Assembly: GCF_021535135.1 (NCBI RefSeq) | Contig: NZ_CP091036.1 | Location: 3,968,001-4,032,000, forward strand | Direction of reading: 5' to 3' | DNA: 64,000 bases | Origin: Antarcticibacterium sp. 1MA-6-2 | GTDB lineage: Bacteria > Bacteroidota > Bacteroidia > Flavobacteriales > Flavobacteriaceae | Notes under the pieces: model-generated | Seen by the model: the letters and a program-made list of their open reading frames with translations, nothing else | Told to the model about the DNA's origin: nothing | Databases searched by the model: none | Shown here: in pieces, positions 1-64,000 of the stretch | Layout of the letters: every line of letters starts with the position of its first letter | Position numbering within the stretch: position 1 is the first letter of the stretch | Program-made: the position numbers and the translations under genes

Positions 1-207
1 AGGTTCGCCATCTATAGATTTAAGATTATATTTTTTGATAAGCCAGGTTCCAATAACTCCCAAAGTAAGGGCAGATCCCATTATGCCGTACATGTGAAAT
101 GATTGAAATTGAAACATCTCATATATGCGAAACCAGGATGCCGCTTCACTTTTGAACATCACAATTCCGAAAACTATACCTATAACTAAGAATTTAATAT
201 ACTTCAT
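1..207 (-). CDS. YeeE/YedE-type (DUF6691) membrane protein, partial
   Basis: This is the N-terminal 69 codons of a small integral membrane protein whose 3' end lies beyond the left edge. It begins MKYIKFLVIGIVFGIVMFKS and has the SWFRIYEMFQFQSFHMYG segment typical of the short partner of paired YeeE/YedE-like proteins. That family is linked to uptake of thiosulfate or other sulfur species. The start lies 4 nt downstream of the stop of the next YeeE-like gene, so the two form one operon and probably act as the two halves of a transporter. Transcription would come from the operator-bearing promoter upstream of the first gene. The family call is firm; the substrate is inferred. Confidence 0.75.
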   Translation of the reverse strand, partial: MKYIKFLVIGIVFGIVMFKSEAASWFRIYEMFQFQSFHMYGIMGSALTLGVIGTWLIKKYNLKSIDGEP

Positions 208-210
208 AAT

Positions 211-773
211 CTAAAAAATTAATGGGAACAATAGGTGAACCATTAGTAGACCACCAATAAAAAATCCAATAACAGCAATTAGGGAAGGCAACTGTAGATT
301 ACTAAGACCAGAGATGGCGTGACCGGAAGTACAGCCGCTAAGCATACCTTGCACCAAAACCAATAAGAAGGCCACCAATGAGCAAAATCAAGAGAGCTTT
401 AGGATCGGTAAAAGCATCATTTGCAAAAAGTTCGGTGGGAAGGTAGGCTTCTCCTGCACTTTCAAAGCCCATACTTTCCAGAGTAGAAACAGTATCGGGG
501 TTAATTTTTACGGCAGTATCTGTGCTCAGGGAATTTGCGGCTATAAATCCGCCTATTATAGCACTTAAGCAACGACTACCAGGTTCCAGCGCTGGGATTT
601 CCAGTCAAAATTAAAAAAGTCAAATCTCTTTCCGGCACTTAAGCTATAGTACACATAGTGCGCAGGTTTGATGACATTCCAAAATTTTTACCTCCAAACA
701 AAAGCAGGAACATTATGGCTGCAATTAAGGGTCCTCCAATATACCAGGGCCAGGGTTCTAAAATCCAATTCAT
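211..773 (-). CDS. YeeE/YedE family membrane protein, frame broken at three RCCGGY-type sites
   Basis: The start is ATG at 773 ([20 protein letters not shown]). Read across three breaks, it is a protein of about 186 residues with hydrophobic helices and the family's hallmark segment [14 protein letters not shown], whose Cys is the probable sulfur-handling residue. The breaks are at about 637-644 and 563-570 (RCTTAAGY in place of RCCGGY) and 336-342 (GCTAAGC in place of GCCGGC). Restoring GCCGGT or GCCGGC gives MCTIAGAGKR, VVVAGAIIGG and ARYAGGCTSG, all expected for the family. The gene is probably intact in the cell. It pairs with the gene at 1-207 for import of a sulfur compound across the inner membrane, and an operator sits 50 bp upstream. 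Confidence 0.8.
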
Positions 774-792
774 TATATCTATTTTATGGCTG

Positions 793-836
793 CAAAGAAA
801 ACACGATTTTAATAAGGAGACAGTAACAAATGTTAC
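793..836 (-). promoter_or_regulatory. Crp/Fnr-type operator and promoter of the YeeE pair
   Basis: On the minus strand the operator TGTAACATTTGTTACTG (core palindrome 823-836) is followed by a TTTG box ending at 793. The distance from the end of GTTAC to the G of TTTG is 30 nt. The same motif and the same 30-nt spacing occur before the MBL-rhodanese gene and tauE. The geometry fits a class II activator centred near -41. Confidence 0.7.
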
Positions 837-1818: not shown

Positions 1819-1915
1819 CTAGTTCTGTACGGCTTGTGGAAATACCTTAGAATAGCATTTCATTTTTTGCCCCGAATGATATAAACTGATTTAAAGAAAT
1901 TTAAAAATCCGGATT

Positions 1916-2305: not shown

Positions 2306-2438
2306 ATTGAAAGCTTCCATTTTTCAAATGAATTTTTCTGAAGGTTTTCGCTGCTACTCCTGAAACTAATTTTCTCCTTCAGCCAAAAAAAATCTTACTT
2401 ATTAAAAAGTATTATCTATCTAACCAAGCTACAGGAAC

Positions 2439-2582: not shown

Positions 2583-2641
2583 TACAGATCATAAAATTTA
2601 AGAAATAGCTATCCTACCTTTAAATTGTAAAACAAACTATT

Positions 2642-3097: not shown

Positions 3098-3103
3098 ATT
3101 TAG

Positions 3104-3132: not shown

Positions 3133-3212
3133 ATTTCATTGAAAGGTTCAGCAAGATCTTCTGCTGCTAATCGCTCTGGTTTTAAGGGTATTTAGCAATA
3201 TTATTACGTAAA

Positions 3213-3269: not shown

Positions 3270-4608
3270 TTATTTAAAATCCTGAATTGTTTCACTTAGA
3301 TCAAATACCTTTTGATCTTTAAATTTGTTCTCTAAAATACTGCTTCCAGCAGCAGATCGGTACCCACCAGCGCAGTGTACAGCAAAAGGTTTATCTTCTG
3401 GTAATTCATCAGCACGATTTCTAAGTTCGTTCAGCGGAATTCCAATAGCGTTTTCAAAGATCTTACCTTCTGCCAGTTCACTCTCATTTCTTATATCTAC
3501 AATGGTGTACTTATCCCTGTGATCTTTAAAATTTTGAAGATCAAAATGATCTGAGGTTACAGAAACTTTCTCACTTAAAGTAATTACTCCTTTCATTTGC
3601 TTTTCATAACCAATTTTTGCTGTTCTTTCCAACAGCTCATCGATATTGCCTACAGAGTTTACTGCCAGGTAAAAAGGTTCATTGGGCTCAATTATGGCTC
3701 CCAGCCAGGTCTCATATTTGTCACCTTCGGTTCGCGACATAATATTAATACTATTTGGAAGATGCCCTTTTTTGTAGGAATCCCCGTCTCTTACATCTAC
3801 GATGGTAATTCCCTCTTCCACCTCATTTACATTTAATCTTAGCGGCACCCGATATTTCTCCCGCTGTACATTCCCTGCACCGTCTCTATTTAGATCTACA
3901 TTAAATCCAAAATAGGAGGGAATAAAAGGCTGGTCCTTAAGGATCTCATCGACAAATTCTTCTTCTGTTTGTTCTTTAAAAGCCCAATTTCCCTTTCGTT
4001 CGTCCCCTAAAGTACTGGAAGGAGAATCACTCATATTTTTTCCGCATAATGATCCGGCGCCATGAGCAGGGAAAACAAGCGCTTCATCGGGAAGGTTATT
4101 AAATTTTGTTTGCATGGTATTATACATAGCCTTTGCAAGTTCTACTCGTTTAGCAGTCATATTTCCGGCTTTTTCCCTAAGATCGGGCCTCCCAACATTG
4201 CCAACAAACAACGTGTCGCCTGTGAACAAAGCAGTTTTACCAAGCTTCTTCGGCAACAAATGTTAAACTGTCCGGGGAATGACCCGGGGTGTGAAGGGGG
4301 CGTATATTAATCTTTCCAATCTTCACCGAGTTTCCTTCATCAAAAGGTTCGTGAGGATAGTTAACTCCCACCTTTTCACTTACATATATAGTTGCTCCGG
4401 TTTCCTGGTGAATTTGTAAATGCCCGCTCACAAAATCGGCGTGAGGATGAGTTTCAAAAACTGCTGTAATCTTTGCATTCTGTTCCTCGGCAAACCTGTA
4501 ATATTGGAGCGGATTACGACTGGGATCAATTAAAGCCATTTTACCTTCACTTACAATAGCATAGGAATAATGTGCTAATGGATCGTCTTTAAATTGTTTT
4601 ATATTCAT
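3270..4608 (-). CDS. Metallo-beta-lactamase fold-rhodanese fusion (persulfide dioxygenase-like), frame broken at 4239-4245
   Basis: This is a protein of about 446 residues. Its N-terminal ETHE1-like metallo-beta-lactamase domain carries the metal motif THPHADFVSGH. Two rhodanese domains follow. The first (IVDVRDGDSYKKGHLPNS) lacks a catalytic Cys, having AVNSVGN at the loop; the second has the active loop CAGGYRSA. Family knowledge suggests oxidation of glutathione or low-molecular-weight persulfide to sulfite, coupled to sulfur transfer. The reading frame breaks where GAAGCTTGGT stands for GAAGCCGGT; restoring it gives VAEEAGKTALFTGDT, the expected family sequence. It is a single gene with its own terminator and the shared operator about 100 bp upstream, consistent with sulfide or persulfide detoxification. 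Confidence 0.88.
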
Positions 4609-4736: not shown

Positions 4737-5112
4737 TTAAAAAAGCTCTTTCCATATAATATAAATTCCCATTACCAGAACAAACCAACCAAAACTTTTT
4801 TTCAATTTTTCACCATTTATAAACTTATTGAGATAGCCTCCAAGGAAAATTCCCAAAATAGACGAGTAGAGTAAAGACTAAAAGAAATATCCAGTTAATT
4901 TCCAGGTTTTCCACGTCACCTATAAATCCTATGAGAGACTTCACTGCTATGATAAGGAGGGAAGTTGCGACTGCTTTTTTCATAGGTAATTTGGCAAGTA
5001 AGACTAGAGCAGGAATAATTAAAAATCCTCCTCCGGCACCAACTATTCCAGTTAGTACTCCTACCACAATACCTTCTACAATAATTAAGGGGTAATTGTA
5101 TGTAACCTTTGT
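4737..5112 (-). pseudogene. TauE/SafE permease, 3' part, cut off by an IS element
   Basis: This is the C-terminal half of a sulfite exporter TauE/SafE-type permease. It resumes at the target-site copy with TKVTYNYPLIIVEGIVVGVL, then has the repeated family motif GIVGAGGGFLIIPALV. The frame shifts again near 4868-4880; reading on gives GIFLGGYLNKFINGE and a stop at 4737. The shift site (FTL...SILGIF) could be another damaged RCCGGY site (Ala-Gly or Thr-Gly expected), but I cannot prove it. The 5' half is at 6799-7229. The IS separates the two membrane halves, so a working protein is unlikely. Confidence 0.75.
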
Positions 5113-8499: not shown

Positions 8500-9629
8500 T
8501 TAAAGATTTTGATGAGCCGGGGAGGAGTGCAGAGGTAAAGAGGTGCCGTTTTTATGGTCATCCCTAAAGAATACCTCAAACCTGGAGCCTTTTCCAAAAT
8601 TGCTCTCTACTTCAATTCGACCATGGTTAGATTCAAGCATTTTTTTGATGATATACAATCCCATTCCTGTCCCCTCTATCTCTTCATTTATTCTTGAAGA
8701 TTTTTGAAAAATGGTCTCGAGATGTTCTTCAGCAACACCTATCCCGTTATCCTCCACTTTAAAGACCACAAAATCATTTATTTTAAAGGTACTAATATGA
8801 ATTTGTGTAGCTCTCTCGTGATCCCTATATTTAATAGAATTGTGCAATAGGTTATAAATTATGCTCCTCAGGTTATTTTTAGGAAATAAAATTGTGGTAG
8901 CCTCGAAATCCCTGGTAATACTAATCCTGTTATGCTGGATTTCTTCCCGAAGAGCATCCAGAACATCCTGACAGATGGTTCTAATGTCCACTGTGTTTTC
9001 GTTCTTTTGATTTGCTTCCCCGCTAAAAGTAAATTCATCCAATAGGGAATCAATTCCATTAGAAGTAGCTTCCAGCCTTTCCAACATTAAGTTAAAGCCT
9101 TTCTGGTCCTGTCTTTTATAAGTTTCCCGAAGCCCGGTGGAAAGAAGTTTTAGAGTAGAAATAGGTTGCTTTACGTCATGAGATAATGCATACATTAAAA
9201 CCTGATGTTGAGCATTTATTTTCTCCAGTTCTTTTATAACATTTAACCGCTTCGTAATATCCACAAAAGTCATAATGACCCCATTAATACTATCATCCTC
9301 GTGGTTCACATAAGGAACAATATTCATTTGAAACCAGTTGCCATCGGTTGTTTGAATTTCTTTTTCAAAAACCTGATGAGTGCTTATGACCTCCTGGATG
9401 TTTTTTACGATCGTAGGATAACGAATGTTATCCTTAACATCCTCAATATTTCTTCCAATGTCGTCATAGGACAATGAGAATTGCACCATAGCTTAAGTGG
9501 TGTAAATATTCTCAAAATCATGTCTGCATCTACAAACAGTTGAGGTATGATAGTATTGGAAAAATAATTTGCAAGGTCGAAATTGAGATTCCTTAGTTGT
9601 AGGATATCTTTTTTAGATTGTTTTGACAT
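8500..9629 (-). CDS. PAS-domain sensor histidine kinase, frame broken at 9491-9498
   Basis: This is a protein of about 376 residues without evident membrane segments. The N-terminus (MSKQSKKDILQLRNLNFDLA) leads into a PAS domain (LFVDADMILRIFTP to about residue 120, including VIMTFVDIT). The HisKA phospho-acceptor is in ALSHDVKQPISTLK. HATPase motifs follow: NLLHNSIKYRD (N box), VEDNGIGV (G1) and GTGMGLYIIKKML (G2). The frame break reads ACTTAAGC where ACCGGC restores TPLAMVQF or similar. It is a soluble sensor kinase; no response regulator lies next to it. The signal is unknown. Confidence 0.85.
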
Positions 9630-12258: not shown

Positions 12259-13103
12259 TTAATGTCGTTGAATAACCAGGACAGGGATAGTAGAATAGTT
12301 ACCTACGTTTGCAGAAAGAGGATCAAATAAAATGTTTTCTATTAAACTATGTTTTCTGTTTATTAAAGCCAGAATATCACTTTGCTTAGGCTTTCAGTAA
12401 AGCAATAAACGCCTACTGGTATTGGAACATGGGTAAGGGAATGAAAACTTAAAGGAGTGTCTTCTAATAATTCCATTAAAAGCTCTTTGTTTTTGTCCTG
12501 TCCGGAACTTAAACCTCCACCATCGTCAATAAATAAAATCTTTAATTGGGAGTTATGCTGTTTAACTAAATTACTGATAAATACATAATCTTCTGGTCGG
12601 GGTACAGTCTTAAAACCTGAGGCCAGAACTATTTCTTTGGGTTTGGAAAATGTCACGTGAGAAGGAATGGCCAAAATGGGACAGCTGGTAACTTTTTTTA
12701 TAATCCTTTGCGTGTTAGCTCCAAATGCAACATTGGCTGAGCTGGTAATTCCCTGCGTACCAATTACAACTAAATCACAGTTAGAGGATCTGACGGTTTT
12801 ATTTATAAAGGCTGTTAACGCCAAATTCCCTGTAAAAACGCGAAACCTATGATTTGAATTTACGTGCTCCTCAACTAAATTCCCCAGGAACTCTTTTAAT
12901 TCATTTTCAACTAACTCTTTTTTAGTTGAAAAAGATTTAGCATTAGGAATTGGAACAAGGCTGCTTCCTTCAAGATAGCCGTCTACCTCATAGGAATGTA
13001 ATAAGGTAAACTCGCATACTTCCTCTTTATATAGATGTAGTGCATAAACAATTGCATTTCTTGAATTTGCTGAAAAATCTGTGGGTAAAAGGATATTTTT
13101 CAT
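12259..13103 (-). CDS. Universal stress protein, two UspA domains, frame broken at 12384-12391
   Basis: This is a protein of about 281 residues starting MKNILLPTDFSANSRNAIVY. The first UspA domain ends with the nucleotide-binding pattern VIGTQGITSSANVAFGANTQ and PILAIPS. The second domain begins EIVLASGFKTVPRPEDY. Near the end GCTTAGGC (plus strand) replaces GCCGGC; restoring it gives TESRQSDILALINRKHSLIE, then IPVLVIQRH and a stop at 12259, the normal Usp ending. It is cytosolic and probably acts in stress adaptation. It precedes nhaA's 3' end on the same strand and may be co-regulated. Confidence 0.85.
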
Positions 13104-13167: not shown

Positions 13168-14545
13168 CTAAAAAACATTTTCAGGTTCTTTTACCATTCT
13201 TGTTTTAGGTTTTACAAGAGATTCAGGTTTGTTAAGTAATAATTTAAGGTAAAGGAAACCTGCCAGGCCAGCGATAAGAGAGGCTGTGAGTATTCCTATT
13301 TTTGCCTGCGATAAAAATAGTTCATTACTAAAAGCAAGTTCTGTAATAAATAACGACATGGTAAAGCCCATTCCACCTAATAAACTAATTCCATAAATGT
13401 GCTTCCAGTTGAGAGTTTGCGGCAGTCTGCAAATTTTAAAAGCTACCATTAGATGGCTGAACAAAGCAATTCCTAAAAATTTTCCAATAACCAGCCCGGT
13501 AGTAATTCCCAGGGCTACCGGGCTAATTAATGATGTGAAGAAATCTGAAGAAATGGCTACACCCGAATTGGCAAAGGCAAATAGAGGCAGGATTATAAAG
13601 CTTACAAAAGGGTGAAGAGCGTGTTCAAGGCGATGAAGGGGAGGAGTGGCATCATCAGCCAGGGAAGAGAATTTCTCTATGGTTATTGAAATTTTGTCTT
13701 CAGTTTCTTTAGAACCTTTATAATTTTTATTCAGAAAATTTAAATCTCTTAAAAGTAATTTTGCTTTTCTAATGAATAAAGGAGTATTAATTCTTTTACC
13801 TGAAGGTATAGCAAAAGCAGCTACTACTGCGGCAACAGTTGCGTGCACTCCCGACAGCAGGACTGCCAGCCAAAGCCCACCAATTCCCATAATTGCATAA
13901 AATAGGGTATTTCTTATTCCTATGTAATTAGCAACAATAAGGATAAAAAGAAAAAACCCGCTAAGCAGCTAAACTTTCCAGGGAAATATCAGATGTATAA
14001 AAAACAGCAATTACCAGTACTGCTCCAATATCATCTATAATAGCAAGAGCAGTCAAAAAAACTTTTAGGGATAAGGGCACTTTATCTCCTAACAAATAAA
14101 GTATTCCCAAAGCGAAAGCAATATCAGTTGCCATGGGGATTCCCCATCCTGAAATTGCGGGAGTGTTATTATTAAAAATAAAATAAATACAGGCAGGTAC
14201 TATCATTCCACCCACGGCCCCTGCTATAGGAAGGGTGGCCCGTCGAAAGTCTGAAAACTCCCCAAATACTATTTCCTTTTTAAGTTCTAGGCCAACAAGA
14301 AAGAAAAAGATTGACATAAGTCCATCATTAATCCAGTGCAACAAACTTTTCCTGATTACCAGGTCATCAAATCCTACGTAGATTTCTTTCTCCCAAAGCG
14401 TGATAAAAACATCTGACCAGGGGGAATTAGAAACAACTATAGCAAGTAAAGCCGAAAATATTAAGAGCAAACCTACTGATGTTTGTTTCTCAATAAAACC
14501 TTTAATAGGAAGCAACAGGTAGAGGTCAAGGTGATTCTTCTTCAT
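13168..14545 (-). CDS. nhaA: NhaA Na+/H+ antiporter, frame broken at 13960-13966
   Basis: This is a protein of about 459 residues with the multi-helix fold of NhaA. Its motifs are FFFLVGLELKKEIVFGEFSD, MATDIAFALGILYLLGDKVP and FLTALAIIDDIGAVLVIAVF; the last holds the paired aspartates (DD) that bind Na+. SGVHATVAAVVAAFAIP and GFTMSLFITELAF follow. The break reads GCTAAGC on the plus strand; restoring GCCGGC joins SLAAG to GFFLFILIVANYIG. It exchanges cytoplasmic Na+ for periplasmic protons, fitting a saline habitat. It lies 64 nt upstream of the stress protein gene. Confidence 0.92.
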
Positions 14546-17702: not shown

Positions 17703-17940
17703 TTATTGCACTGCTTCAATTGCCCTGTCTAAAATTACATCTTTTCCAATCTTAAGATCCTGTATCCGAATTTCAACTTTTATATCTGGTTCAATCCCTA
17801 CCTGTTGCACTTCTTCCTTATTAATCGTGTATATTCCATTGCTTAGTCATAATTGTTGCAACATTTCCGGGTAAAACCAGATTTACCACGTCTCCATTAA
17901 GAATTTTTGAGTTCCTAAATTGCTGCAGAATAATATATTG
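17703..17940 (-). pseudogene. C-terminal remnant of an S41-like peptidase
   Basis: Reading from about 17940 gives [30 protein letters not shown], then a break at 17841-17847 (GCTTAGT on the plus strand for GCCGGT). It resumes with GNGIYTINKEEVQQVGIEPD, IKVEIRIQDLKIGKDVILDR and a stop at 17703. The G-hyphen-EPDI pattern and the tail suit an S41 (C-terminal processing) peptidase, but no N-terminal part is present. It is a truncated leftover; the break itself may be a sequence error. Confidence 0.5.
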
Positions 17941-49729: not shown

Positions 49730-52181
49730 TCACTCAGTTCTTAAATTCTTTACAGGATTTACCAGAGCGGCTTTTATTGCCTGGAAACTTACTGTGACCA
49801 GTGCTATTATTATTGCAAGTAATGCCGTTAAAGCAAACACCTCCCAGGAAATACTGATCTTATAGGCAAAAGTTTGCAGCCATTTGTCCATAGCATACCA
49901 GGCAAGAGGAGAGGCAATCAAAACTGCCAACAATACCAATTTTAGAAAGTCAACAGAAAGTAAGGCCACAAGATTGGAAACACTTGCACCCAAAACTTTC
50001 CTGAGGCCGATTTCCCGGATTCGCTGCTCCGCACTAAAGGTGGCCAGGCCAAATAATCCAAGGCAGGAAATAATAATTGCTATTAAAGTGAAATAGCTTA
50101 TCATCTTTGCAAGCCAGTCTTCTGCCTGATAATTTTTCTGAAAATCCTGGTCCAGGAAACTGTACTCAAAAGGTTCATTAGGAATTACACTTTTCCAGTT
50201 TGCTTCAAAGGAATCGAGGTTTTGTTTCATATTACCTGTGCCCACCTGGGCAATGATGTAATTTTGGTTTGAGGTGTTGTTTAATAGGAAACCATAAGGT
50301 TCTATGCCTATATGGAGATCTTTAAAGTGAAAATCTTTTACAACCCCTATAATCCCGAAGCGATACTGCGTGCCTTCCCAGTCAAAGGCGATCCAGTTAC
50401 CTACTGCTGCTTCCGGCGAAGCAAAACCCATCACTGAAACAGCCTTTTCATTTATTACTATACTGTTCTCGTTGTCTCCAGTAAAATCTTCAGAAAAAAT
50501 ACGTCCTGCTACAGGTTTAATCTCCATGGTTTGTAAAAAACTATTGTCAACCCTGTTGATGTAAACAGATTTGGCGTTTTCCATAGTATTTCCTTCTTTG
50601 TACATCAACCAGTCTGTAGGATTAAAGATTCCCGGATAGTAAAAGGATGCCCCAACAGATTTGACATCGGGATTGGCAGCTATTTTTTGCTTTAAATTCA
50701 GGTAATTTTCTTTTGCTACTGCACTCCTCAATGGGATTACGAGTTGTTGTTCTTTTTTAAACCCAAGATCCGTAGAACGTAAGAAGTTCATTTGTTTTGA
50801 GATGACAACAGAAGCGATAATTAATACCACAGATATTACAAATTGTACTACTACCAATCCTTTTCTTAGAGAAATGGCAGCAAAGGAATTTGAGAATTTT
50901 CCTTTAAGTACTTTAACCTAGTTTAAATGAGGACAGGAAAAAAGCCGGATAACTTCCTGCAAGAAGTCCCGTAAGAAATGCTATCAATAAAAAGGCAAGA
51001 TATAGCTGTACTTGTTGATCAAGTGCCAAAGTAATTTCTTTTCCCGCTACCTGGCCGAAGATGGGAAGAAGAAACTGCACCAGTATAACTGCGAAGAAAT
51101 AAGCAATAAGAGACATAATAAGTGATTCTCCCAAAAATTGCCAGATGAGCGTTTTCCTTTCGGCACCCAGGACTTTACGAACACCTACTTCCACACTTCT
51201 CTTGGAAGAGCGGGAGGTAGACAAATTCATAAAGTTAATACACGCTATAAGCAGGGTAAGAATAGCAATAGAAGCCAGAATATAGATGTATTTCCTGCTT
51301 CCGGGAGGGGTAACATTTTCGGCCATTCTTGATTCCAGGTGAATATCTTCAAGGGGAGTAAGAAAAAATTCGGCTTTAGATCCCCGGGCCTTTAAGTCTT
51401 CCTCCATATGTTGCTTAATAAAACCAGGAAATTTTTTCTCCAGACTTTGTGGATCAATCCCTTCCTTCAGCCTTAAATAAGTAAAGAACATATTATTGTT
51501 TACCAGTGTGGTACTGTTATTTACAAACTCCTCAAGATTTCCTCCCTCAACAGACAGGAAGAAGCGGGCATTGATATGGGAAGGATTTTTATGAGGTTTA
51601 AAGACACCGCTAATCGTGTAGTCGTGGTCCCCGTTGGTACTGCTGCTTACTCTTATTTGTTTGCCCAATGCGGAATCATTTCCAAACATTTTCCTCGCAA
51701 TTTCTTCTGTTACAACTACAGTGTTGGGAGCAGCAAGTGCTGTTTCAGGATTTCCTTCAATAAAATTATAAGTGAACATATCGAAGAAGGAAGCATCGGC
51801 AATAAATCCTTCTGTCTCATAAAAGGAATTTGTCGCACCACCTGGTGCCTCATATTTCAAAAGGGTTTTATCATCTTCAAAAAGTGCCAGTAATCTTGTG
51901 GTTTCCTCGATCTCCGGAAAGTCCTGAGTAAGAGTCCCTGCCATTGCTGCAGGTACCGTAGGTCTTGCTTCTGATTCTCCGTCGGATTCGTGTACCGCAG
52001 CTAACTGATAAGTTCTGCTTCCATTTTCATGATGCAGGTCATAGCTGTATTCGTGAAAAATATACAAGGAGATAAGCATGCAACAGATAAAACCAATTGC
52101 TAATCCAAAGATGTTGATGAAAGAGAAGGTCTTATGCTTCATCAAATTCCTGGCGGCTAATTTTAAATAGTTTTTGAACAT
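49730..52181 (-). CDS. FtsX/MacB-type ABC permease (array gene 3), frame broken at 50916-50922
   Basis: This is a protein of about 816 residues. It starts MFKNYLKLAARNLMKHKTFS; the first half ends FFLSSFK, and the second half starts with VLKGKFSNSFAAISLRKGLV. The break reads ACCTAGT on the plus strand; restoring ACCGGT gives SSFKPVKVLKG, the expected MacB linker. FtsX motifs are SKRSVEVGVRKVLGAERKTL and REIGLRKVLGASVSNLVALL, and the end is NPVKNLRTE. It is flanked by two copies of a 33-bp palindrome. Confidence 0.9.
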
Positions 52182-52240: not shown

Positions 52241-54659
52241 TTATTCTGTCCTTAAATTTTTAACCGGATTTGCCAGTCCAGCTTTTATTGCCTGATAACT
52301 TATTGTTATAAAAGCTATAAGAATGGCAAATATTCCTGCAATGGCAAAAACGATCCATCCTATGTCAATGCGATATGCAAAATCCTGAAGCCACTTATCC
52401 ATAAAATACCAGGCGACGGGAGAAGCAAGCAACAATGCAATTGCAATTAAGAGGAGGAAATCCCTGCTTAACAAAACCACTATCCCACTTACCGTGGCGC
52501 CCAGCACTTTTCTTATTCCTATTTCTTTTGTTTTCCTCACCACTACAAAAGAGATAAGACCCCATAAACCAATACAGCAAATGAAGATGGAGATGAATGA
52601 AAATGCTTTGAAAATTTGAAAGTTTTGCGTTTCCTGCTCATAACTTCCTGCAAGTGTTTCATCAATGAAGTTCATTTCGTAAACATTATCGGGATAAATT
52701 TTTCTCCAGGAATCTTCCACAGCCGCCAGGGTATTTCTCATATCTGCCTGATTAATTTTAATACCCGCAGCTACATGAAAGTATGGGAAAGGTGTCATTG
52801 CAACCGATCCTATATTCTCGTGAAGGGAAGAAGTATGAAAATCTTCAGTTACTCCTACAATGGTTGGTCTAATATCATTTATTCCTATTTGTATTGTACT
52901 TCCCAGAGCTTCTTCAGGTTCATTAAATCCCAGGGTTTTGGCAAGGGAACGGTTTATGACCACAGCACTTCCTATATTTTTTTCTTCTGAAGAAAGAAAC
53001 CATCTGCCTGCCAGAATTTCCATCTCGTAGGTTTTAAGATAATTGCCATCGCAGGGAATGACCTTGGTACTATAACCACCACCTTCCGGAAGTTGAGGTG
53101 CGTTTAAACTTGTACCAATTCCGCTTCCTGAAATTGGAGCTCCCAAACAAAAAGAGATTTGCTTAATTCCTGTTTGTTCCTGTAAGAGGTTCCTGAAATT
53201 TTCACGTTTGATACTATCGCTTTCCGGTAATCGCACTTCTATGACAGCCTCCTTGTTAAAGCCTAATTCCTTATTCTGAAAATACTCCATTTGTCGGGAG
53301 ATGACCAGGGTACAAATTATGAGGGCAATGGATGTGGTAAATTGAAATACAACTAATCCTTTTCTTAATACCACAGAGGATTTACCCGGCGTGGCAAAGC
53401 GATTTTTCAGTGAATTCACCGGGCTAAACCCGGATAAAATAATAGCCGGGTAGGCTCCTGAAATAAAGGAGATTAAAATTATTATGCCTAAAAATCCGGT
53501 TATGAAAAGAGGATCAAGAAGAGCTAATGAATTAATGGATTTCCCTAAAATACTGTTGATCGTAGGTAAAAATAGAAGAGCAATGGCAATTCCTATCACA
53601 GCTGCCAACAGAGTCACAACAAAAGTCTCCAGCATATAGTGAAAGAACAGCTGCTTTTTAGAGGCTCCAATTGTTTTTCGAACCCCAACCTCTTTTGATT
53701 TAGTAAAAGCAAAAGAAGTAGAAAGATTTACATAATTAACGCATGCAATGAGCAGTATGAAACCCCCAAGCAACAACAACATTGTAAGGTATCTGGAGCT
53801 TACTGTATATGTTGCATTACTGCCCTCGTAAGTGGGATCAAAATGTATTTGGGACAATGGCTGCAGGTATATTTCTTCCTTTCTTTTCTCCTCGGGAGTA
53901 GATTTTCTTTCCACCATAGCTTCAAAAGCCGCATCAAGGGCAGTAGGTGCCTGCTTATCAGGAAGGCGCACATAGCTATAGCCGCCGGAAGTAAAAGACC
54001 AACTCTGGAGATCAAACCCATTCATGAGTTCATCATTTAAGGTGGAGTAGGAGATAATTATAGAATACGGTAAATGGCTTCTACCTGAAACATCTTTTAC
54101 AACTCCCACCACCTCAAGATCTGCCTTATTATCAATTCGAATTAGCTGGCCCATTGCATTACTGCCGGGGAAGTACTCTTTTGCCTTACTCTCTGATAGT
54201 ACCACAACATTAGGTAAGTCTAAAGCGGTTTCAGGACTTCCGGAGATCCAGAAATTTTCAACCTCTTTGAAATCAAGAACATTAAAAAAAAGAGAGTCAG
54301 CAAAAATTACATTTTCTTCAAGAATAGGGTCCTGCTCTGCAATCTGCACCTGCATCTCATCAGCAAAGTTTATCTGTGTAGCTGTAATTCCCGGAACTTC
54401 ATCCTGCAAGAATCTGCTTAGTTGGATAAGGAACATGGGCATCGAAATTTAGTTGATCGTTTCTTTCAGTTTTACTTACTACGCGGTAAAGATTGTCAGT
54501 CTCAGAATGAAATTGGTCAAAGCCGCTTTCATAAGTAGAGATAAGAAAAAGTACAACAACAGCTGCAATACCAAGGGATAAACCCAACAGGTTGATGAAG
54601 GTGAAGCTCTTGTTTCTCCACAGGTTCCGAAGGATTTGTTTTATAGAAAGTGATAGCAT
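52241..54659 (-). CDS. FtsX/MacB-type ABC permease (array gene 4), frame broken at 54416-54422
   Basis: This is a protein of about 806 residues starting MLSLSIKQILRNLWRNKSFT. The N-terminal helix (FINLLGLSLGIAAVVVLFLI) is followed by a periplasmic domain. The break reads GCTTAGT on the plus strand; restoring ACCGGC gives VPYPTGRFLQDEVPGI and joins both parts. Later motifs are FTKSKEVGVRKTIGASKKQL and KTKEIGIRKVLGATVSGIVV, and it ends NPVKNLRTE. Upstream of it lies the small exported protein gene 54681-55139, which splits the array. Confidence 0.9.
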
Positions 54660-55193: not shown

Positions 55194-57624
55194 TTATTCT
55201 GTTCTTATATTTTTAACGGGATTGCTTACTGCTGCTTTAATAGCATGAAAACCTACTGTTAATAAGGCAATGCTTACTGCCGAAATTCCTGCTATTAAAA
55301 ACACGTACCAGCCAATGTTGATCCTATAGGCAAAATCCTGTAACCAGCCGTCCATAAAATACCAGGCAATTGGAGAGGCAATTAAAAGAGCAACCAATAC
55401 CAGCTTTACAAAATCTTTAGAAAGAAGCATAACTATGTTTTCTACACTTGCCCCAAGAACTTTTCTAATTCCAATTTCTCTCTTCCTTCTTTCTGCGGAA
55501 AATGCAGCCAATCCAAATAATCCAAGGCAACCCACGAAAATTGCAAGCCCGGTAAATACGCCCAACAGAGTTTTTAATTTATCTTCAGACTGATACATAA
55601 CTTCAAAATTTTCGTCTAAAAATTTATATTCAAGAGGATATTCGGGACTGAATTTGTTCCAAACCGTCTCAACCTGATCAAGAGAACTTTCCAGTTGCGC
55701 AGTTTCCAATTTCACCGCTACTTTCCAGGCTGCATCAGGGAAAATTTGGAGCACTGTAGTTTCAACTTTTTCATAAAGACTCTTATAGTTAAAGTCTTTT
55801 ACAACGCCAATTACCTGTCCCACTTTTAAAGAATCGGGATTGGTATTGTTCCACACATTCCAGGTAAGTTGTTGTCCTATGGCTTTCTCCGGAGTTTCAA
55901 ATCCGAGGTTTTTTACAGCGGTTTCGTTAATGATGAAAGCTTTATCCCTGTCTGTTCCCATTTCTTCTGAAAAAGGTCGGCCCGCTACCATTTCCAGACC
56001 TAAGGTCTGGATATAGTCATAATCTACCATTAACTGCGTGGCCGGGTTTTCTACCAGTTGCCCGTTTTTAAGAGTCTTTATTCCGTCTCCCGCCACTGCA
56101 TCTCCCGGGAATCCATAGCCCACGGATACAGAAGCAACTCCGGGAATTTGTTCCAGTTGATCCTTAAAAGCATCTTTGTTGGTGAACATTTCATCCCCTC
56201 GCATTGGAAAAAACATGATCTGGTCTTTACTAAATCCCAAATCTTTATTATGCAGATAATTCACCTGATTAAAAACTACAATGGCGCTAATTATAAGCAA
56301 GACAGACATGGAAAACTGAAGAACTACCAGCCCGTGGCGAAGCAGTGGTGTCTTTCCCGGTTCCTGATCTCCTGCAGCCGAACCTTTAAGTACTTTTACT
56401 ACCTAAACTTAGAAAGTACCAGCGCCGGGTAAAGGCTGGCAAGAATTCCCACAGTTATTGTAAGAATTAAAAATACCAGTAATGCTATGGGGTTTGTGAA
56501 GGCAGAGTAGTTTATATCTTTACCTGTAAACTCATTTAACCATGGTAGCAAAAGAGCGGTTAAAGCCAGAGAAAGAACAATACTTATAATTGTAAGGAAT
56601 ACCGTTTCTCCCAAAAATTGAGTGATCAATTGCTTTCGATCTGCTCCAATAGTTTTTCTAACTCCAACTTCTTTTGCTCGTTGTAGAGATTTTGCGGTAG
56701 CAAGGTTTATAAAGTTAAAACAGGCAATAAGTAAAATAAAGATTGCGATAAAAGTAAGAGCCTTTACATAAGTAATATTACCTCTTTTAGCATTGTCATA
56801 CACAAAGCTGGAGGAATGTAAATGAATATCTTTTAAAGGCTGCAAGTGCATTATGTTAGTTGAGAGTTCTCCTCCCTGGCTTAGTTTCTTTTGTTTTTTG
56901 CTCTACAATCTGCCGTAGTTTTGCTTCCAAAGCTTCTGCATTGGTACCGGGTTTTAACTTTACATAATTATAAAATTGATTCCATCCCCAGCTTTGCATT
57001 CTTTCAGCAGGTATACCTGCCAAAGCAAGAGGCATTACAGATTCGAATTGTAAATGAAACTTTGGATTTTTTTGTAAAAACTCCTGTAATTTTTAAAGGA
57101 GTTTTATTCATAATAATTTCTTTACCTACAGGATTTTCAATACCAAAATATCTTTCTGCCATTTCTTCAGAAAGAACAATAGATTCCGGTTGATCTAGGG
57201 AACTTTTTGCGGTTCCGTATTTAAATTCTAAGGGTAAAACCTCAAAGAAGGTAGAATCAACAAAAATTCCCCTCTCTTCATAGATCTTTTTATCGCCTAC
57301 TTCATAAAGGTTCTTTGTTTCCGGCAGCATTAAGATCCTGGCAGTTTTTTCAACTTCAGGAAAGTTTTCGTTCAGGGTAGGAGCAATCATAGGATAAGTT
57401 ACAGCCAAATCCTCGGTTCCTTCATTATCGGTATGGTTATTATAAACCCGGTAAACCCGATCTCCTTCAGGAAGGAATTTATCAAATTGATATTCGTCCC
57501 AAATGAAGAGGGCAATTAAAAAGCAAGCTGTAAAGCCTAAAGCCAAACCTGCGATATTTAAAAAGGAAAACCCTTTATGCCTCAGCATATTTCTCCAGGC
57601 GATTTTGAAATGGTTTTTTAACAT
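55194..57624 (-). CDS. FtsX/MacB-type ABC permease (array gene 5), frame broken three times
   Basis: This is a protein of about 810 residues starting MLKNHFKIAWRNMLRHKGFS. The breaks are near 57079 (one A too many, restoring FTKNPKFHLQFES), 56879-56885 (GCTTAGT for ACCGGC on the minus strand, restoring KETGQGGELSTNIMH) and about 56398-56405 (restored as KFRPVKVLKG with a GCCGGT). FtsX motifs are LQRAKEVGVRKTIGADRKQL and RKREIGIRKVLGASVENIVM, and it ends NPVKNIRTE. It is tightly spaced to gene 6 (10 nt). Confidence 0.88.
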
Positions 57625-57633
57625 GGCTATATA

Positions 57634-59982
57634 TTATTCTGTTCTTAATATTTGTGCAGGGTTAGTAATTGCAGCTTTAGCAGCCTGTATGCCTATGGTT
57701 AAAAGTGCTATGGCAATTATTATAAGGAAGAGCAATAGCATTAAACCTACAGCCACTCCATCATTGAAAGCGAAAATGTTGATAAAGAAGAAGGAAATTA
57801 AATATCCCAGAGGAAGACAAATTGCTGCCGAAATAGCCAGGAGTTTGAAAAAACTTTTTAAAAGTTCCTGAATAATGGCTCGCACAGAGGCACCTAAAAC
57901 TTTACGGATGCCTATCTCCTTGAACCTTTTCTCGGTGGTGTAGGTGACAATGCCTAAAAGACCCATAATTGCAATGATGAAAATAGTTAAGCATACCATA
58001 CCCATAAATTTCATTTCGGCACCGGGATAATAGCGCTCATATAATTCTTCTTCATAATTGGAAATTGCTATCTCCTCGTAAGGCTTGTGTTTCTTCCAGA
58101 TAGAGCCTATTCCTGCACGGAAAGCAGCTTCATTTAAATCTCCTGTAGTTTTAATGCTCAGGACCTGAAATTTTTCCGGGTTGTAGTGAAGTACAAGAGG
58201 GCGGGTTTCAAACTGGTATATGTAATAACAAAAATCCTTTACCACTCCCTTAATAGTTACCTGTTGATCGTTGTTCAGATAAATTGTTTTTCCGACAGCT
58301 TCCACTAGGTTTACCTAATCCCAGGGAAAAAGGGTTTTTTCATTGACAACAATAAAATTGGAAGTAGAATCACCGGAGGTCTCGTGAAGATTTTCTCCTG
58401 CAATTATTTCGAGTTTCATATTCTTAATAAAATCGGCATCAACTGCATAATAACTTGCTTCGAAATTTTCATCCAGTTTTTTCTCTTTTATTGCGGCAGT
58501 CATGGAGGTTCCTCCAAAAGGAGCAGAGGTAAATCCTACACTTTCCACATTTTTATGCGAGGCAATTTCATTTGCCATTAAAGTATGATCTCCCCTGACT
58601 GAAATGTTATAGATGTCTTTCCTATTAAAATTTTCATTGTCTGTAGCCATGTATCTGAACTGGCTGAACATATTTGCAATTAAGAAGATAAAACAGGCTG
58701 TGACAACAAATTGAATAACCACAAGGCTTTTTCTAAAGCCTATTTTTCCAAAGGAAGCAGGATTTAAATTTCCTTTTAAAACTTTTGCTGGTGAGAAACG
58801 GGATAAAATTTTGGCAGGAATTATTCCCGCTACCGCACTAGTAAGTACAGTAAAACTAATAAATACAGACCAAAGGATTAGGTAATTATCTACTTCCCAT
58901 GTGAGCCAGTTTACGGTGATAAACTCTTCCATTATTTTCAATAGAAAAAATCCAACAACCAGTGCGAATAAAGCTATTAGAATAGATTCACATAGAAACT
59001 GCCATACAAGTTGGTTCCGGCTGGCGCCGTTTACCTTTCTAATCCCGACTTCATTTGCACGGTTTAATGATCGTGCAAGGGTGAGATTGGTATAATTAAA
59101 ACTTACCAGTAAGATTATAGCGAGTGCCATAAAAAAGTTAACCGAAAGGTCCCTGAGAGATTCTACATAGGGATTGTCCTCCAACTCTTCAAAATCCGGA
59201 GAGATTTTGTCAAAAGCCTGGCTTTGAAATAATCTTTTTTCGTCCTTCTCCTGCACCAGTTTATTAGTGTTTGCTGTAATTGCAGCCAGAGCCGCATCCA
59301 GGTTCTTGCGGTTTTCTTCATTCTGAAGTTTTACATAAGTATATCCTGTAAGATCCAGCTGTGGGTTCTGGTCCCTGAATTTGCTTTGGGTAGCCATAGA
59401 AACCAGGACATCACTTCTAAAATGCGTGGTTTTTTCATAGGGTTGCAATACTCCCGTAATAGTTAATTCTCCATAGTCGTGATGAGTCACGGTTTTTCCT
59501 ATTGGATTTGCATCTCCGAAAAATATTTGTGCCATTTCATGGCTCAACACTATTGTGTTAGGAGAATCTGGTATTGTTCCTGTTCTAAGGGGAAAGGCAA
59601 AAATTTTAAAAAAATCAGGCTCTACAAAGAGTGGGTTTACTTCTATAGTTTTGATACTATTGTTAAGTTCCCATCCAAATTCTCTGGTTGTATGAGTAGC
59701 TTTTTCTACAAAGGGATAGTCCTCTCTCAATCTGCTAGCAACGGCCATAGGAGAGGAGCCATACTTTGTTTTCTCACCAGATGGCGTTTCTATTTGTGTG
59801 GTAACACGGTATATCTTTTCTCTCTCCGGATGGAAATTATCGTATTCAAAAACACTTTGAACCTGCATCAAAGAAAGCAAAGCAAATGGAATGGCCAGAC
59901 CAAGCCCCATAATGTTTACGAAGGAAAAAAGTTTATTCTTCCAAATATTTCGCCACGCTATTTTGAAGTAGTTGCAGATCAT
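57634..59982 (-). CDS. FtsX/MacB-type ABC permease (array gene 6), frame broken near 58304-58328
   Basis: This is a protein of about 783 residues starting MICNYFKIAWRNIWKNKLFS. The join around 58304-58328 needs two small changes: ACTAGGT for ACCGGT (restoring GKPVEAVGKTIYL) and one missing base in FPLGLG. FtsX motifs are LNRANEVGIRKVNGASRNQL and KRFKEIGIRKVLGASVRAII. It ends NPAQILRTE, slightly off the array consensus. It is 11 nt from gene 7 and 10 nt from gene 5, so the three are translated as one operon. Confidence 0.87.
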
Positions 59983-59992: not shown

Positions 59993-62424
59993 TTACTCGG
60001 TTCGTAAACTTTTTACCGGATTTGCTATTGCTGCTTTGGTTGCCTGAAAACTTACTGTAAGAATTGCTATTAACAAGGCCAGAGTTCCTGCAAGTGCAAA
60101 TACCCACCATTCAATGTTTATCCTGTACGCAAAATCCTGTAACCAGTCATGCATAATATACCATGCGATAGGAGAAGCAATAACAATAGCTACCGCTACT
60201 ATTTTCAGAAATGATTTCGAAAAAAGTAGGATAATGGAGTTAATCGAAGCTCCCAGCACTTTCCTTATTCCTATTTCTTTTATCTGTTGTTCTGTTATTT
60301 GAACTATAAGTCCAAAAACTCCCATTGCAGCGAGGAATAAGCTTAATCCGCTGAAAAAGGCAAACAACTGCTGCAATTTACTTTCAGCCTTATATTGGGT
60401 GGCTAACATTTCATCTACCCTGTTTACTTCCAGTAATTTATTGGGATAAAATTCCGTCCACAATTTTTGCAGTTCTTCTAAAACTGCCTGTTCAGCTCCT
60501 GATTTTGTTCTTATTATCATCCCTCCGTAAGGAATAGGATTTTCCGCAGTAATTATTGTTGGTTTAAGAGAAGTTTTTAAAGATTCGGTATTGAAATTTT
60601 CCACAATTCCTACCGGGGTTATCTTAGCATCTTCAATATTTTCATTTAAATTTTTAACCTGAAGAATATTCGCTGTATATGAAGTTAGAATTGAAGCAGG
60701 GCTGTTACTGGATTTCCTGCTCTTCCTTCCAAATGATTTCACCGTTGGGATTGCCAGCTTTTACATCAGAAGGAAATTTTTTGTCCAGGAGCCTTCCTTT
60801 CTGCAATTGAAGACCCAGGGTTTCTGCAAGATCAAGATCTGCACTTATATAATAGATTTCAATACTTTTATCAGGATCTGCAGGATCGGGTACTCTTTTG
60901 GACATGTAACCTTCCTTTAGTAGGTATCCAGGTGGAAACACTCACCTTTTCGATATTCGAATTTTTTAATAATTGGGTTTTAAAAACATCTCCTTTGCCG
61001 TCCCAGCTCACAGTTCCAATACTTAAAAGAGATTCTTTATTATATCCAATATCTGTGGTCTTAAGGAAAGTCACCTGCTGCTGTACCACAATGAGTGCGA
61101 TAAGAACAATAATAGAAATTGAGAATTGAAGCACCACAAGGCTTTTTCTTACCAGGTTCTGGCCACTTAAATTTCCGGTATATAAATTCCCTTTTATGGT
61201 TTCGGCAGGATTGTATCCTGACATTACAAAGGCGGGATAGCCTCCTGCCAGAAGACTTATGCAAAGAAGAATTACAGTCATTATTCCAAACAGGTAAAAA
61301 CCTGAGACAAAGGTCTGTTGTAATGCATGCCCCAAATAATTTTCAATAAAAGGGACAGATAATTTATATAAGAAAGTGGCTATTAAGGCAGAAATAGTAA
61401 AGAATAAAACAGCTTCTGTAAGAAACTGGAATACCAGTTGCTTACGGTTGGCACCAAGAATCTTTCTTACGCCTATTTCCCCCATCCGTTTAACTGCTCT
61501 GGCAGTACTAAGATTAATAAAATTAACACAGGCCACAATGAGCAGAAGCAAAGCGACCCCGCTAAGGATGTATATATTTGAAAAACTTCCTTTTATTTCC
61601 TGATATTCAGCAAAATCAGAATGTAAATAAATGTCCTTTACAGGTTGTAGTTCAAATGAATCTGCCTTTTCAGCTTCTACAAAGTCAGCATACCAGTTAC
61701 TCAGCTTTTGACCAAACTCATTTGAATTTGTACCTGATTTCAGAAGCACATAATTTTGACGAAAGGTGCCAAATTGCTCCTTGTTTAAAACTTCCAGCCT
61801 TCCTTTTTGCACCAGAAGTGCATCGGCTCTTAAGTGGGTATTCGAGGGAATATCCTCTATAACTCCTGTGATAACGTATGAATTAGGTTCTGCGCCATAA
61901 GAGGGTACATCAGAAATAATTTTACCAACTGGATCTTCATTTGGAAAGAACCTTTCTTTTAAACTGCGGCTTATGATCAGATTTTTTTTGTCGTGGATAT
62001 AATTTTCAGGACCTCCAGCCAAAATTTTTAAATCCAGCATCTTCCAGACGGTAGTATCTGCCTGTAAAAGATTCACTTCAACCTGATCTGATTCCGAAGA
62101 AGAAAGTTTTAAATGAATGGGGCGGGTACTTAACTGTGAGACAGCTTCTACTTCCGGAAAATCATTCATTAAGACGGGATTAAGACCAGCAAATGAAGAA
62201 GCCATCCTTTTAGATTGGTTACTTCCGGTGGTACTAACAGTAATGATCCTGTAAAGGTCATTTCCTTTACTCCAGTGCGTGTCATAAGAAAGATCATCTA
62301 TAACAACTGTGGCCACACTCATGCATGCCCCGATTCCTATGGTTAAACCCAGAATATTAATGAATGAGTAAACCTTGTTTTTAGTTAAGGTTCGCCACGC
62401 TATTTTGAAGTAATTCCAGATCAT
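59993..62424 (-). CDS. FtsX/MacB-type ABC permease (array gene 7), frame broken twice
   Basis: This is a protein of about 810 residues starting MIWNYFKIAWRTLTKNKVYS. One break near 60915-60922 probably covers a TGxG stretch (ACCGGT expected) and joins STWIPT to GYMSKRVPDP. A second near 60710 joins GEIIWKEEQEIQ to NSPASILTSYTA; its cause is unclear. FtsX motifs are VKRMGEIGVRKILGANRKQL and QIKEIGIRKVLGASINSII, and it ends NPVKSLRTE. The second break is the only one in the array I cannot explain well. Confidence 0.83.
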
Positions 62425-62434
62425 TTTTACAATT

Positions 62435-63042
62435 TTATTCGGTTCTTAAGTTTTAATAGGATAGGAGGTGTTGCCGTTCACTTCAGCTTCAAGGTCGGTA
62501 TGAGAGTATGAAGGAATCTCGTTGAGCGGCCTTAGATTAAGGGAAATCCAGCCTGATGCTTCAAGGCCGCTATTAAAGAAAGCCGGGAACCGGGTTTTCA
62601 GGTTTTCAGTAAGTGCATGTTCAGGATTACCTTTTATGAAATTGATATTAAACATTTGCACAAAATTCTCATCGGCAAAGTAGGTATCGTTTTCATTAAA
62701 AATATTGTCTTTATGCTGAAGGGTAACGATACCTGCAGAAACAACTCTTGTTAATTTCTCTATTTCTTTAAAATCATTCTCAAGTAATGGTCCAATGGCT
62801 GGTGCTGCAGATCCCAGTTCAAGAGAAGGTATTCCAGTTTCAGGATTAATAAAGGTTCTTTCAATTCTATAGATATTTGAAGCATTTTCGTGATAGCGGT
62901 CATAGCTCAGTTCATGAAGCACAAAGGCTGAAATTAAAAGGCAGCAGCAAAGTCCAATAGTAAGCCCGAAGATATTTATCAGGGAGATGAACCTGAATTT
63001 CATTAGGTTTCGAACTGCTGAGGTTATATAGCTTTTGATCAT
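62435..63042 (-). pseudogene. Internally deleted FtsX-type permease (array remnant)
   Basis: This starts as a normal permease (MIKSYITSAVRNLMKFRFIS, helix SLINIFGLTIGLCCCLLISA, then about 110 residues of the first periplasmic domain). After GNPEHALTENLKTRFPAFFN it jumps to SYPIK and, with a one-base shift, NLRTE with a stop at 62435, the array's usual C-terminus. About 600 codons are missing. It sits between two complete array members. A short frame to 62446 remains, but no working permease is possible. Confidence 0.78.
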
Positions 63043-63095
63043 AACACCTGATGTTTTTTATCTCCCAAGTTCCTAATTTGAGAGACCTGAAATAA

Positions 63096-64000
63096 TTATT
63101 CTGTTCTCAGACTCTTTACCGGGTTCGCAATGGCTGCCTTTACTGTTTGTAAACTCACCGTTGCCAGGGCAATTCCTATAGCCAGAATTCCGCCCACTAC
63201 AAATAATTCAAAAGGCATTTTAATTTTATAAGCAAAACCCTGAAGCCAGAAATGAGACCCATACCAGGCAATAGGTACTGCAATTAACACTCCCAGTAAA
63301 ACCAGCTTTAAGAAATCCAGGGAGAGTAAGGTGGTTAACTGTGCAACAGATGCTCCAAGGACTTTTCTTATACCTACTTCCTTTTTTCGTTGGGTAGCGG
63401 TAAAAGCAGCAAGGCCAAATAATCCCAGACAGGAGATGAGAATTGTAATTAAGGAGAAAATATTCAGGATCGAAGCAGTTCTCTGTTCAGTTTGGTAAAG
63501 TTCTCTATATTCGTCATCGAGAAAACGGTACTCAAAGGTTTTGCCCGGATTAAATGAGTTCCAGGTTGTTGCAATATCAGTTATGGCCTGGTTTATATTA
63601 TCACCTGTCGTTTTTATAAGTATCTGCCCAAACCAGTCATATTCTGCAAAAATTACTACTAGTTCTATTTTCTGGTGAAGAGATACAAAATTAAAATCCT
63701 CGAGAACGGCTGTAATTAAACCGTTTCTTCCGTTTAGACTTGCAGCCTTCCCAATTGCTTCCCCGGGAATATAACCAAGTGCTTCAACAGCCGTTCTATT
63801 CAGCATAAAAGCATATTGACGTTCTGGACGGTCAATTGAAACCAGTTTTTTATCAGCAGTAGTGAAATTTCTGCCCTTAATAATTTCCAGGTTCATCGCT
63901 GAAACAAAATCCTTATCAACTGGAATAGCGGTAATAGACATACCTTCCCCGTCCTGCCTTCCGGCTACAGAAAATGAATATCCACCCTGTATGTTTACAG
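63096..64000 (-). CDS. FtsX/MacB-type ABC permease (array gene 8), partial at the right edge
   Basis: This is the C-terminal 301 codons of a permease whose start lies beyond the window. The frame is open from the right edge (VNIQGGYSFSVAGRQDGEGM) through the second periplasmic domain. The FtsX block has TQRKKEVGIRKVLGASVAQL and helices LVLLGVLIAVPIAWYGSHFW and VGGILAIGIALATVSLQTVK, ending NPVKSLRTE. The array therefore continues to the right. Confidence 0.88.
   Translation of the reverse strand, partial: VNIQGGYSFSVAGRQDGEGMSITAIPVDKDFVSAMNLEIIKGRNFTTADKKLVSIDRPERQYAFMLNRTAVEALGYIPGEAIGKAASLNGRNGLITAVLEDFNFVSLHQKIELVVIFAEYDWFGQILIKTTGDNINQAITDIATTWNSFNPGKTFEYRFLDDEYRELYQTEQRTASILNIFSLITILISCLGLFGLAAFTATQRKKEVGIRKVLGASVAQLTTLLSLDFLKLVLLGVLIAVPIAWYGSHFWLQGFAYKIKMPFELFVVGGILAIGIALATVSLQTVKAAIANPVKSLRTE

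Follow-up and report, generated by a model that had tools for sequence, protein, structure and literature searches.

Genome-wide loss of the hexamer RCCGGY in the assembly of Antarcticibacterium sp. 1MA-6-2 likely reflects miscalling at 5-methylcytosine

The stretch of DNA analyzed here (the window) comprises 64,000 bases of Antarcticibacterium sp. 1MA-6-2, G000:C1:3968001-4032000, in a genome (G000) assembled as one contig (C1) of 4,383,004 bases, with a completeness of 97.25. It encodes, among others, a Na+/H+ antiporter, a TonB-dependent receptor, a sulfate permease, a GH92 protein, and a series of FtsX/MacB-type permeases, and reading frames are broken at many places along it. A first-pass annotation made from the letters of the window had listed 30 such places, 25 as clear and 5 as probable, and placed them all at the hexamer RCCGGY (R, A or G; Y, C or T). 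We examined whether this word is missing, how the frames change where it would be expected, and which enzyme may modify it.

RCCGGY does not occur in the window. The sister classes RCCGGR, YCCGGY, and YCCGGR occur 61, 59, and 80 times, a proportion that predicts 45 RCCGGY sites (61 x 59/80). Among the degenerate palindromic hexamers scanned, it had the lowest z-score (0 against 76.3 expected on both strands, or ~38 sites). RCCGGR and YCCGGY are present at ordinary numbers, which speaks against the same lesions at those words. Genome-wide, 62 RCCGGY sites are left in 4.38 Mb (42 ACCGGT, 19 ACCGGC/GCCGGT, and 1 GCCGGC), against ~3,300 expected by proportion (199 x 235/255 in 244 kb); about 2% have been kept and ~3,200 are gone. 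The 244 kb sampled from this genome contain none, versus 259 in 400 kb from four congeners. That sample includes nine 20-kb control stretches (L113-L121) at round coordinates chosen once the residual sites were known, and their zero count is therefore not independent, whereas the genome-wide count of 62 is. ACCGGT numbers 282 to 1,166 per genome in 15 congeners, and its ratio to a reversed-word control in the present genome (42/904) is, by eye, the lowest of 395 genome rows, the next lowest being near 0.12. The loss of RCCGGY is real, genome-wide, and specific to that word class. Word frequencies relative to congeners were also tried as a way to recover the whole lesion spectrum; since base composition confounds this comparison (control words rise too), they were kept for RCCGGY totals only. 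As a separate observation, the plain hexamer with the lowest z-score in the window under a maximum-order Markov model is GAATTC (40 observed and 67 expected, both strands).

Frame changes were located with a fourth-order, three-periodic coding model trained on 242 long open reading frames (ORFs) of the present genome, those of the window included. The model was embedded in a seven-state hidden Markov model (HMM) with priced frame changes, which used neither homology nor motif. Over 264 kb of the present genome, it called a same-strand frame change 120 times, or 4.55 per 10 kb; with the same parameters, 400 kb from four congeners yielded 63 (1.57 per 10 kb), of which 31 resemble stop/start overlaps. 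The k-mers that stood out most strongly around the changes in the 264 kb, a result obtained without the first-pass list, include CTAAG, CCTAG, ACCTAG, CTAAGC, ACTAAG, ACTTAG, and CTTAAG. Eight lesion words, RC(TTA/TAA/CTA/TAG/TTAA/CTAG/TTAG/CTAA)GY, were tested. Of their 155 occurrences, 43 coincide with a frame change, and for all but one of the 43 the shift is exactly the length of the word less six bases; therefore, the lesions behave as a six-base word plus one or two bases. The corresponding counts for the same cores in other contexts are 3 of 124 for Y..R (2 agreeing in shift), 11 of 127 for R..R (2 agreeing), and 8 of 119 for Y..Y (3 agreeing). In the congeners, none of 163 R..Y lesion words stands at a frame change. 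The lesion text had been described as most often RCTTAAGY, RCTTAGY, or RCTAAGY; CTTAAG accounts for 8 of those 43 words and is one among many texts.

A frame change lies within 15 nucleotides of 19 of the 30 listed places (16 of the 25 clear and 3 of the 5 probable ones), where 0.5 would be expected (chance, 1.8% per site). The shift equals the text length minus six at 16 of these 19; it does not at 39315, 20567, and 60915 with the bounds first assigned to them. RCCGGY as the place of the frame breaks is thus borne out. The list itself held in large part, with the site at 4868-4880 unconvincing and some bounds off by one base. A blastx comparison with 400 kb from four congeners covered 27 kb of the window and gave 13 frame-shift clusters; 10 fall at 9 different listed sites, and those near 56920-57016, 59985, and 60714 do not. 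In addition, consecutive parts of one Pfam profile lie on the two sides of several listed sites (antiporter, sulfate permease, and GH92). The listed sites are as follows, in window coordinates, with the strand where one was assigned.

337..343 (first listed as 336-342): lesion text GCTAAGC, in a gene first read as YeeE; from the text, HMM coding segment begins at 340, no same-strand frame change
563..570: lesion text ACTTAAGC; from the text, HMM coding segment ends at 565
637..644: lesion text ACTTAAGC; text only, HMM silent
4239..4245, minus strand: ACCAAGC between metallo-beta-lactamase-fold and rhodanese parts; HMM change at 4243, shift +1, equal to length minus six; Pfam
4868..4880: first listed as probable, unsupported; no HMM frame change or segment end
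9491..9498: lesion text GCTTAAGT; from the text, coding segment ends at 9466
12384..12391: lesion text GCTTAGGC; text only, HMM silent
13960..13966, minus strand: GCTAAGC splitting the Na+/H+ antiporter gene; HMM change at 13964, shift agrees; PF06965 positions 3-179 and 209-374
17841..17847: lesion text GCTTAGT; text only, HMM silent
18993..19000, plus strand: GCTTAAGC beside molybdopterin-binding domains; HMM change at 18993, shift +2; Pfam
19210..19216, plus strand: ACTTAGC in the same coding run as 18993..19000; HMM change at 19216, shift +1
20567..20575, plus strand: ACTTAGGC at 20568-20575; HMM change at 20570, shift disagrees with the length
27514..27521, plus strand: GCTTAAGC in the TonB-dependent receptor gene; HMM change at 27516, shift agrees; blastx junction
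29417..29424, plus strand: lesion text GCTAAGGT; HMM change at 29422, shift agrees; blastx
29702..29708, plus strand: lesion text ACTCAGC; HMM change at 29707, shift agrees; blastx
29870..29876, plus strand: lesion text GCTAGGT; HMM change at 29878, shift agrees
32461..32468, plus strand: ACTTAAGT in the sulfate permease gene; HMM change at 32452, shift agrees; PF00916 positions 3-138 and 165-379
34689..34696: lesion text ACTTAAGC; from the text, coding segment starts at 34693
38250..38256, plus strand: ACCGAGT in the GH92 gene; coding segment starts at 38256
38730..38736, plus strand: ACTTAGC in the GH92 gene; PF17678 positions 9-149 and 182-236; HMM segment start at 38757
39315..39320, plus strand: near ACCGTT in the GH92 gene, bounds uncertain; HMM change at 39308, shift unfit for six letters; PF07971 positions 1-127 and 135-464
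40986..40993, minus strand: ACTTAAGC in a hexapeptide-repeat gene (first read as carbonic anhydrase); HMM change at 40990, shift agrees; PF00132
43365..43371, minus strand: lesion text ACTTAGC; HMM change at 43356, shift agrees; blastx
44785..44791, minus strand: GCTAAGC in an FtsX/MacB-type permease gene; HMM change at 44784, shift agrees; blastx, 73% identity on both sides
50916..50922, minus strand: ACCTAGT in a permease gene; HMM change at 50915, shift agrees; blastx, 25 pairs of high-scoring segments
54416..54422, minus strand: GCTTAGT in a permease gene; HMM change at 54403, shift agrees; blastx
56398..56405, minus strand: region of ACTACCTA; HMM change at 56402, shift agrees; blastx
56879..56885, minus strand: lesion text GCTTAGT; HMM change at 56881, shift agrees
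58304..58310: ACTAGGT, weak; coding segments abut at 58314-58317
60915..60922, minus strand: probable lesion, text uncertain; HMM change at 60914, shift unfit for the text as given; blastx

The metallo-beta-lactamase-fold and rhodanese parts flanking 4239..4245 are likely one gene. In the TonB-dependent receptor gene, Pfam places CarbopepD_reg_2 on one piece and the Plug and barrel domains on the other. The permease genes belong to a long tandem array of MacB/FtsX-type genes of ~800 amino acids (aa) each (window 44208-62424, G000:C1:4012211-4042985); there are 25 matches to this type in the present genome and 7 to 14 in the congeners G002, G003, G004, G010, and G015. An Rfam scan of the window gave no match.

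Two kinds of repeated sequence carry several copies of a site within the same assembly. A tandem array at C1:2400726-2403787 (L092:1848-4909) has 13.9 units of ~220 bp that are 97% alike, with two spots that vary. At the first, the 13 complete units show seven texts (ACCGGC in 4, ACCCGC in 3, ACAGC in 2, and four others once each), and the last copy of the array reads ACAGC. At the second, they again show seven texts (GCTAAGT in 7 and six others once each). These 26 texts comprise 14 longer than six bases, 2 shorter, 6 substituted, and 4 intact, some with altered outer letters. The remainder of the unit, outside the two sites, is exactly 207 bases long in all 13. Counting each site as six bases gives a unit of 219 bases, or 73 codons, and the array may encode a 73-residue protein repeat read in frame. 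The second case is one place in the 3' part of the 16S rRNA gene, where the three copies of this genome read GCAGGT, GCTTAGGT, and GCTAAGGT, two of them with two-base insertions. At that place, 7 of 13 congener copies have GCCGGT with AACCGTG downstream, and 6 have GCCAGT with AACTGTG; AACCGTG is present in all three copies of the present genome. Among the 23S genes, two match the third at 99.96% and 99.86% identity. We know of no biological process that would alter rRNA in this way at a single hexamer. Copies of one and the same true sequence carry different wrong texts, and where the length can be tested, sites behave like a six-base word exchanged for 5 to 8 bases. The earlier idea of a basecaller failing in a fixed way is not borne out by these differing texts.

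The sites that remain intact have features of their own. Fifty of the 62 lie inside ORFs of at least 150 aa. After removal of three duplicate array contexts, ACCGGT accounts for 42 of the 59 remaining contexts (73 of 258 in congeners), and A or T precedes the site in 89% (63% in congeners). Residual sites are clustered genome-wide, with 20 gaps under 10 kb versus 8 expected, the array explaining part of this. In L076 (G000:C1:875518-886812), for instance, five intact RCCGGY sites lie within 11 kb, interspersed with 8 lesion words, and two of the five stand at what we take to be P-type ATPase DKTGT-like motifs. Protein footprints or unmethylated regions were considered and judged unlikely, as the sites are mostly in ORFs, among lesion words, and have biased flanks. 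That the few correctly read sites are mostly ACCGGT with A or T on the flanks is more likely a context effect of the basecaller than the outcome of a biological cause.

The only match to PF00145 (C5-cytosine methyltransferase) in the genome at an E value of ≤0.001 is at C1:3944960-3946138, 22 kb upstream of the window; PF01555, the other modification family searched, has no match in the genome at that threshold. The gene, for a 394-aa methyltransferase, sits between genes for a 359-aa endonuclease and for Vsr (TIGR00632), a tyrosine recombinase-like gene is also a neighbor, and all four frames are open. The endonuclease was recognized by a PADLOC model for type II endonucleases (PDLC03534; E value, 7e-132), and its family is PF27126, carried by the 120 homologs listed; 2,132 homologs were found at an E value of ≤0.001. 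A PDB sequence search with this protein gave no match. Its AlphaFold model (mean predicted local distance difference test score, 79.8) has weak PDB fold matches, YaeQ being the best and EcoT38I the next, none at an E value of ≤0.001.

The four best plasmid relatives of the methyltransferase are 40 to 53% identical to it. The three with annotation, from Nostoc, Moraxella, and the Geobacillus plasmid pBsrF30, each adjoin an endonuclease labeled Cfr10I or Cfr10I/Bse634I; the fourth record is unannotated. The plasmid name pBsrF30 points to BsrFI, which presumably originates from that strain. A recognition block, KRLHR..YSPT..YGNNEVHLHP, is common to all 8 aligned enzymes, among them that of pBsrF30 and two others that adjoin Cfr10I/Bse634I endonucleases, with overall identity down to 38%. 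For a further relative (P0174; 66%), the source gives the name "modification methylase NmeDIP." Four relatives of the methyltransferase came up in a genome scan. Neither L014 (a 59% relative) nor the short locus of G336 contained the exact block. The 15 other genomes of the genus lack a close copy; congener G014 (220 contigs) has, at locus L159, a 39% methyltransferase with the same block. In Chryseobacterium gwangjuense (L012:9977-12239), a methyltransferase (64%) adjoins a PF27126-type endonuclease in the same order, and the 21-kb locus contains 3 RCCGGY sites. From its recognition block, the methyltransferase is predicted to be specific for RCCGGY. A BanI/HgiCI-type specificity, GGYRCC, was considered from protein sizes and rejected, as GGYRCC is not depleted (92 versus 71.8 expected) and the block matches that of RCCGGY enzymes. 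The gene set likely serves restriction-modification with Vsr repair, and the presence of Vsr beside a C5 enzyme would fit 5-methylcytosine. The genome does encode, 22 kb from the window, a relative of M.BsrFI or M.Cfr10I such as the first-pass annotation had envisaged, with a recognition block of the pBsrF30 type. The proposed Cfr10I/BsrFI-type system is supported as regards the methyltransferase but not the endonuclease, which is a PF27126 protein.

The most probable explanation, to which we assign a probability of about 0.94, is that the cell methylates a cytosine of RCCGGY and that a long-read basecaller untrained for this mark wrote a wrong, often longer word, with both the loss of the hexamer and the loss of frame as the result. 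The methyltransferase encoded upstream of the window would mark a cytosine in RCCGGY. On each strand, the inner modified C would probably be read as T, TT, or CT, and the errors of the two strands would merge into palindrome-like words, namely, CTTAAG, CTTAG, CTAAG, CCTAG, CTAGG, and CCTAGG between R and Y. Overall, the assembly is likely a long-read-only one affected by 5-methylcytosine-mediated miscalling; we infer that the enzyme is active, that its product is 5-methylcytosine, and that the platform was nanopore. A variant in which further genes build a bulkier derivative on 5-methylcytosine would account for the ~98% failure and for one or two extra bases in place of the usual C-to-T change, but we consider it improbable.

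This explanation has precedents. NmeDI of Neisseria meningitidis is a Vsr-containing system whose target is given in most reports as RCCGGY, seen by MspJI and not by single-molecule real-time sequencing (PMC7973814). It shares with the present system the set of endonuclease, 5-methylcytosine methyltransferase, and Vsr, and the 66% methyltransferase relative noted above bears its name, but it comes from a different phylum, and the content of the gene sets was compared by the description of NmeDI. BsrFI, Cfr10I, and Bse634I are accompanied by a C5 enzyme with a nearly identical recognition block, whereas overall identity is 40 to 55% and the present endonuclease, of PF27126, has no significant PDB fold match. 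VchM of Vibrio cholerae methylates nearly all RCCGGY sites (PMC4654547); it is likened here by its description and is an orphan 5-methylcytosine enzyme, whereas the present one is paired with an endonuclease and Vsr. As for sequencing errors, ~70% of those in the consensus fell at Dcm sites when default models were benchmarked on Klebsiella (PMC6591954). In Listeria, mismatches in five genomes numbered 1,533 to 5,670 and were tied to GCAGC and GCTGG; they persisted through repeated native sequencing and fell sharply on amplified DNA (PMC10687267). In N. meningitidis sequenced with Oxford Nanopore R10, 199 of 208 single-nucleotide errors were C/G to T/A, 152 were at 5-methylcytosine calls, and ~75% of indels were at or beside methylated sites (PMC12506013). 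What these cases have in common with ours is a systematic, strain-dependent wrong consensus at methylated or motif sites. Ours differs in its motif, in the frequency of +1 and +2 insertions where the errors described for Listeria and Neisseria are mainly substitutions, and in the loss of ~98% of sites. The excerpts of the literature searched contained no report of an RCCGGY lesion of this kind. The phenomenon as such is known, and we describe a new instance of it, at RCCGGY and with insertions the most frequent of the frame-breaking lesions seen.

Several observations weigh against methylation-mediated miscalling. The error mostly described at 5-methylcytosine is a substitution (PMC10687267, PMC12506013), whereas insertions of one or two bases are the commonest frame-breaking form seen here. 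The specificity of the methyltransferase is deduced from its recognition block, and the 359-aa endonuclease matched no family in the Pfam copy scanned, the Cfr10I family included. Eleven of the 30 listed places have no HMM frame change, some of them standing at coding-segment ends. R..R and Y..Y cores are found at frame changes more often than Y..R cores, mostly with a disagreeing shift. By design, the eight words represent insertions and retain R and Y; lesions that alter either letter, deletions, and lesions that leave the frame intact are therefore undercounted. Finally, 76 of the 120 frame changes lie away from the eight words, when ~41 would be expected at the congener rate.

Ordinary long-read errors in homopolymers were also considered. 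Runs are near 8 of the 76 frame changes off the lesion words (background, 4%), such as that at window 10235, as expected of a long-read-only consensus. That such errors were mistaken for a motif is nevertheless very improbable: the lesions are word and class specific (R..Y, 43 of 155; Y..R, 3 of 124), and none of the 44 frame changes at lesion words is near a run. We give a similarly slight chance to real mutations, caused by genome decay or by a process destroying RCCGGY, such as a faulty Vsr or endonuclease, both of which are encoded nearby. Under this model one word would have to be lost at ~98% of its sites with the sister classes kept, and one 16S site would have to differ in three ways among copies, two of them by two-base insertions. 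The array units also keep exactly 207 bases elsewhere, and the listed completeness is 97.25%.

Natural avoidance of a restriction site, with no sequencing error, would be prompted by the restriction system present, but it is the least credible of the alternatives. Avoidance leaves frames intact, and the frames at these sites are broken. Moreover, it is unlikely because genomes with the recognition block have ordinary ACCGGT counts, ACCGGT being the one word of the RCCGGY class counted in this comparison. G394, with the endonuclease (76%) and a methyltransferase with the block, has 492 copies; G336, with the endonuclease (68%) and a short locus in which the block was not found, has 607; and congener G014, with its 39% methyltransferase and the block, has 282. 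Depletion therefore follows the present assembly and not the carriage of such an enzyme. Somewhat less remote, though still quite unlikely, is modification by an enzyme other than the C5 methyltransferase, such as an N4-methylcytosine enzyme of another family, a phosphorothioate system, or an unknown enzyme. The endonuclease family gives no specificity, and the search for modification families covered PF00145 and PF01555. At an E value of ≤0.001 there is, as noted, no PF01555 match, the sole C5 enzyme has the RCCGGY block, and of the 15 congeners, none has a close copy of this methyltransferase and none is depleted.

If methylation-mediated miscalling is the true explanation, the broken genes are reading errors and not real mutations. 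With ~3,200 sites wrong by proportion, likely hundreds of apparent frame shifts, the 16S copies, and any claims of gene loss in this genome would be suspect. Tandem arrays and rRNA copies provide a truth set within the same assembly. A finished FASTA file can point to the target of a methyltransferase, as an absent word and shifts of length minus six name the motif without reads. Vanished palindromes in public long-read-only genomes could suggest the targets of orphan methyltransferases and, likewise, those of the widespread PF27126 endonuclease family.

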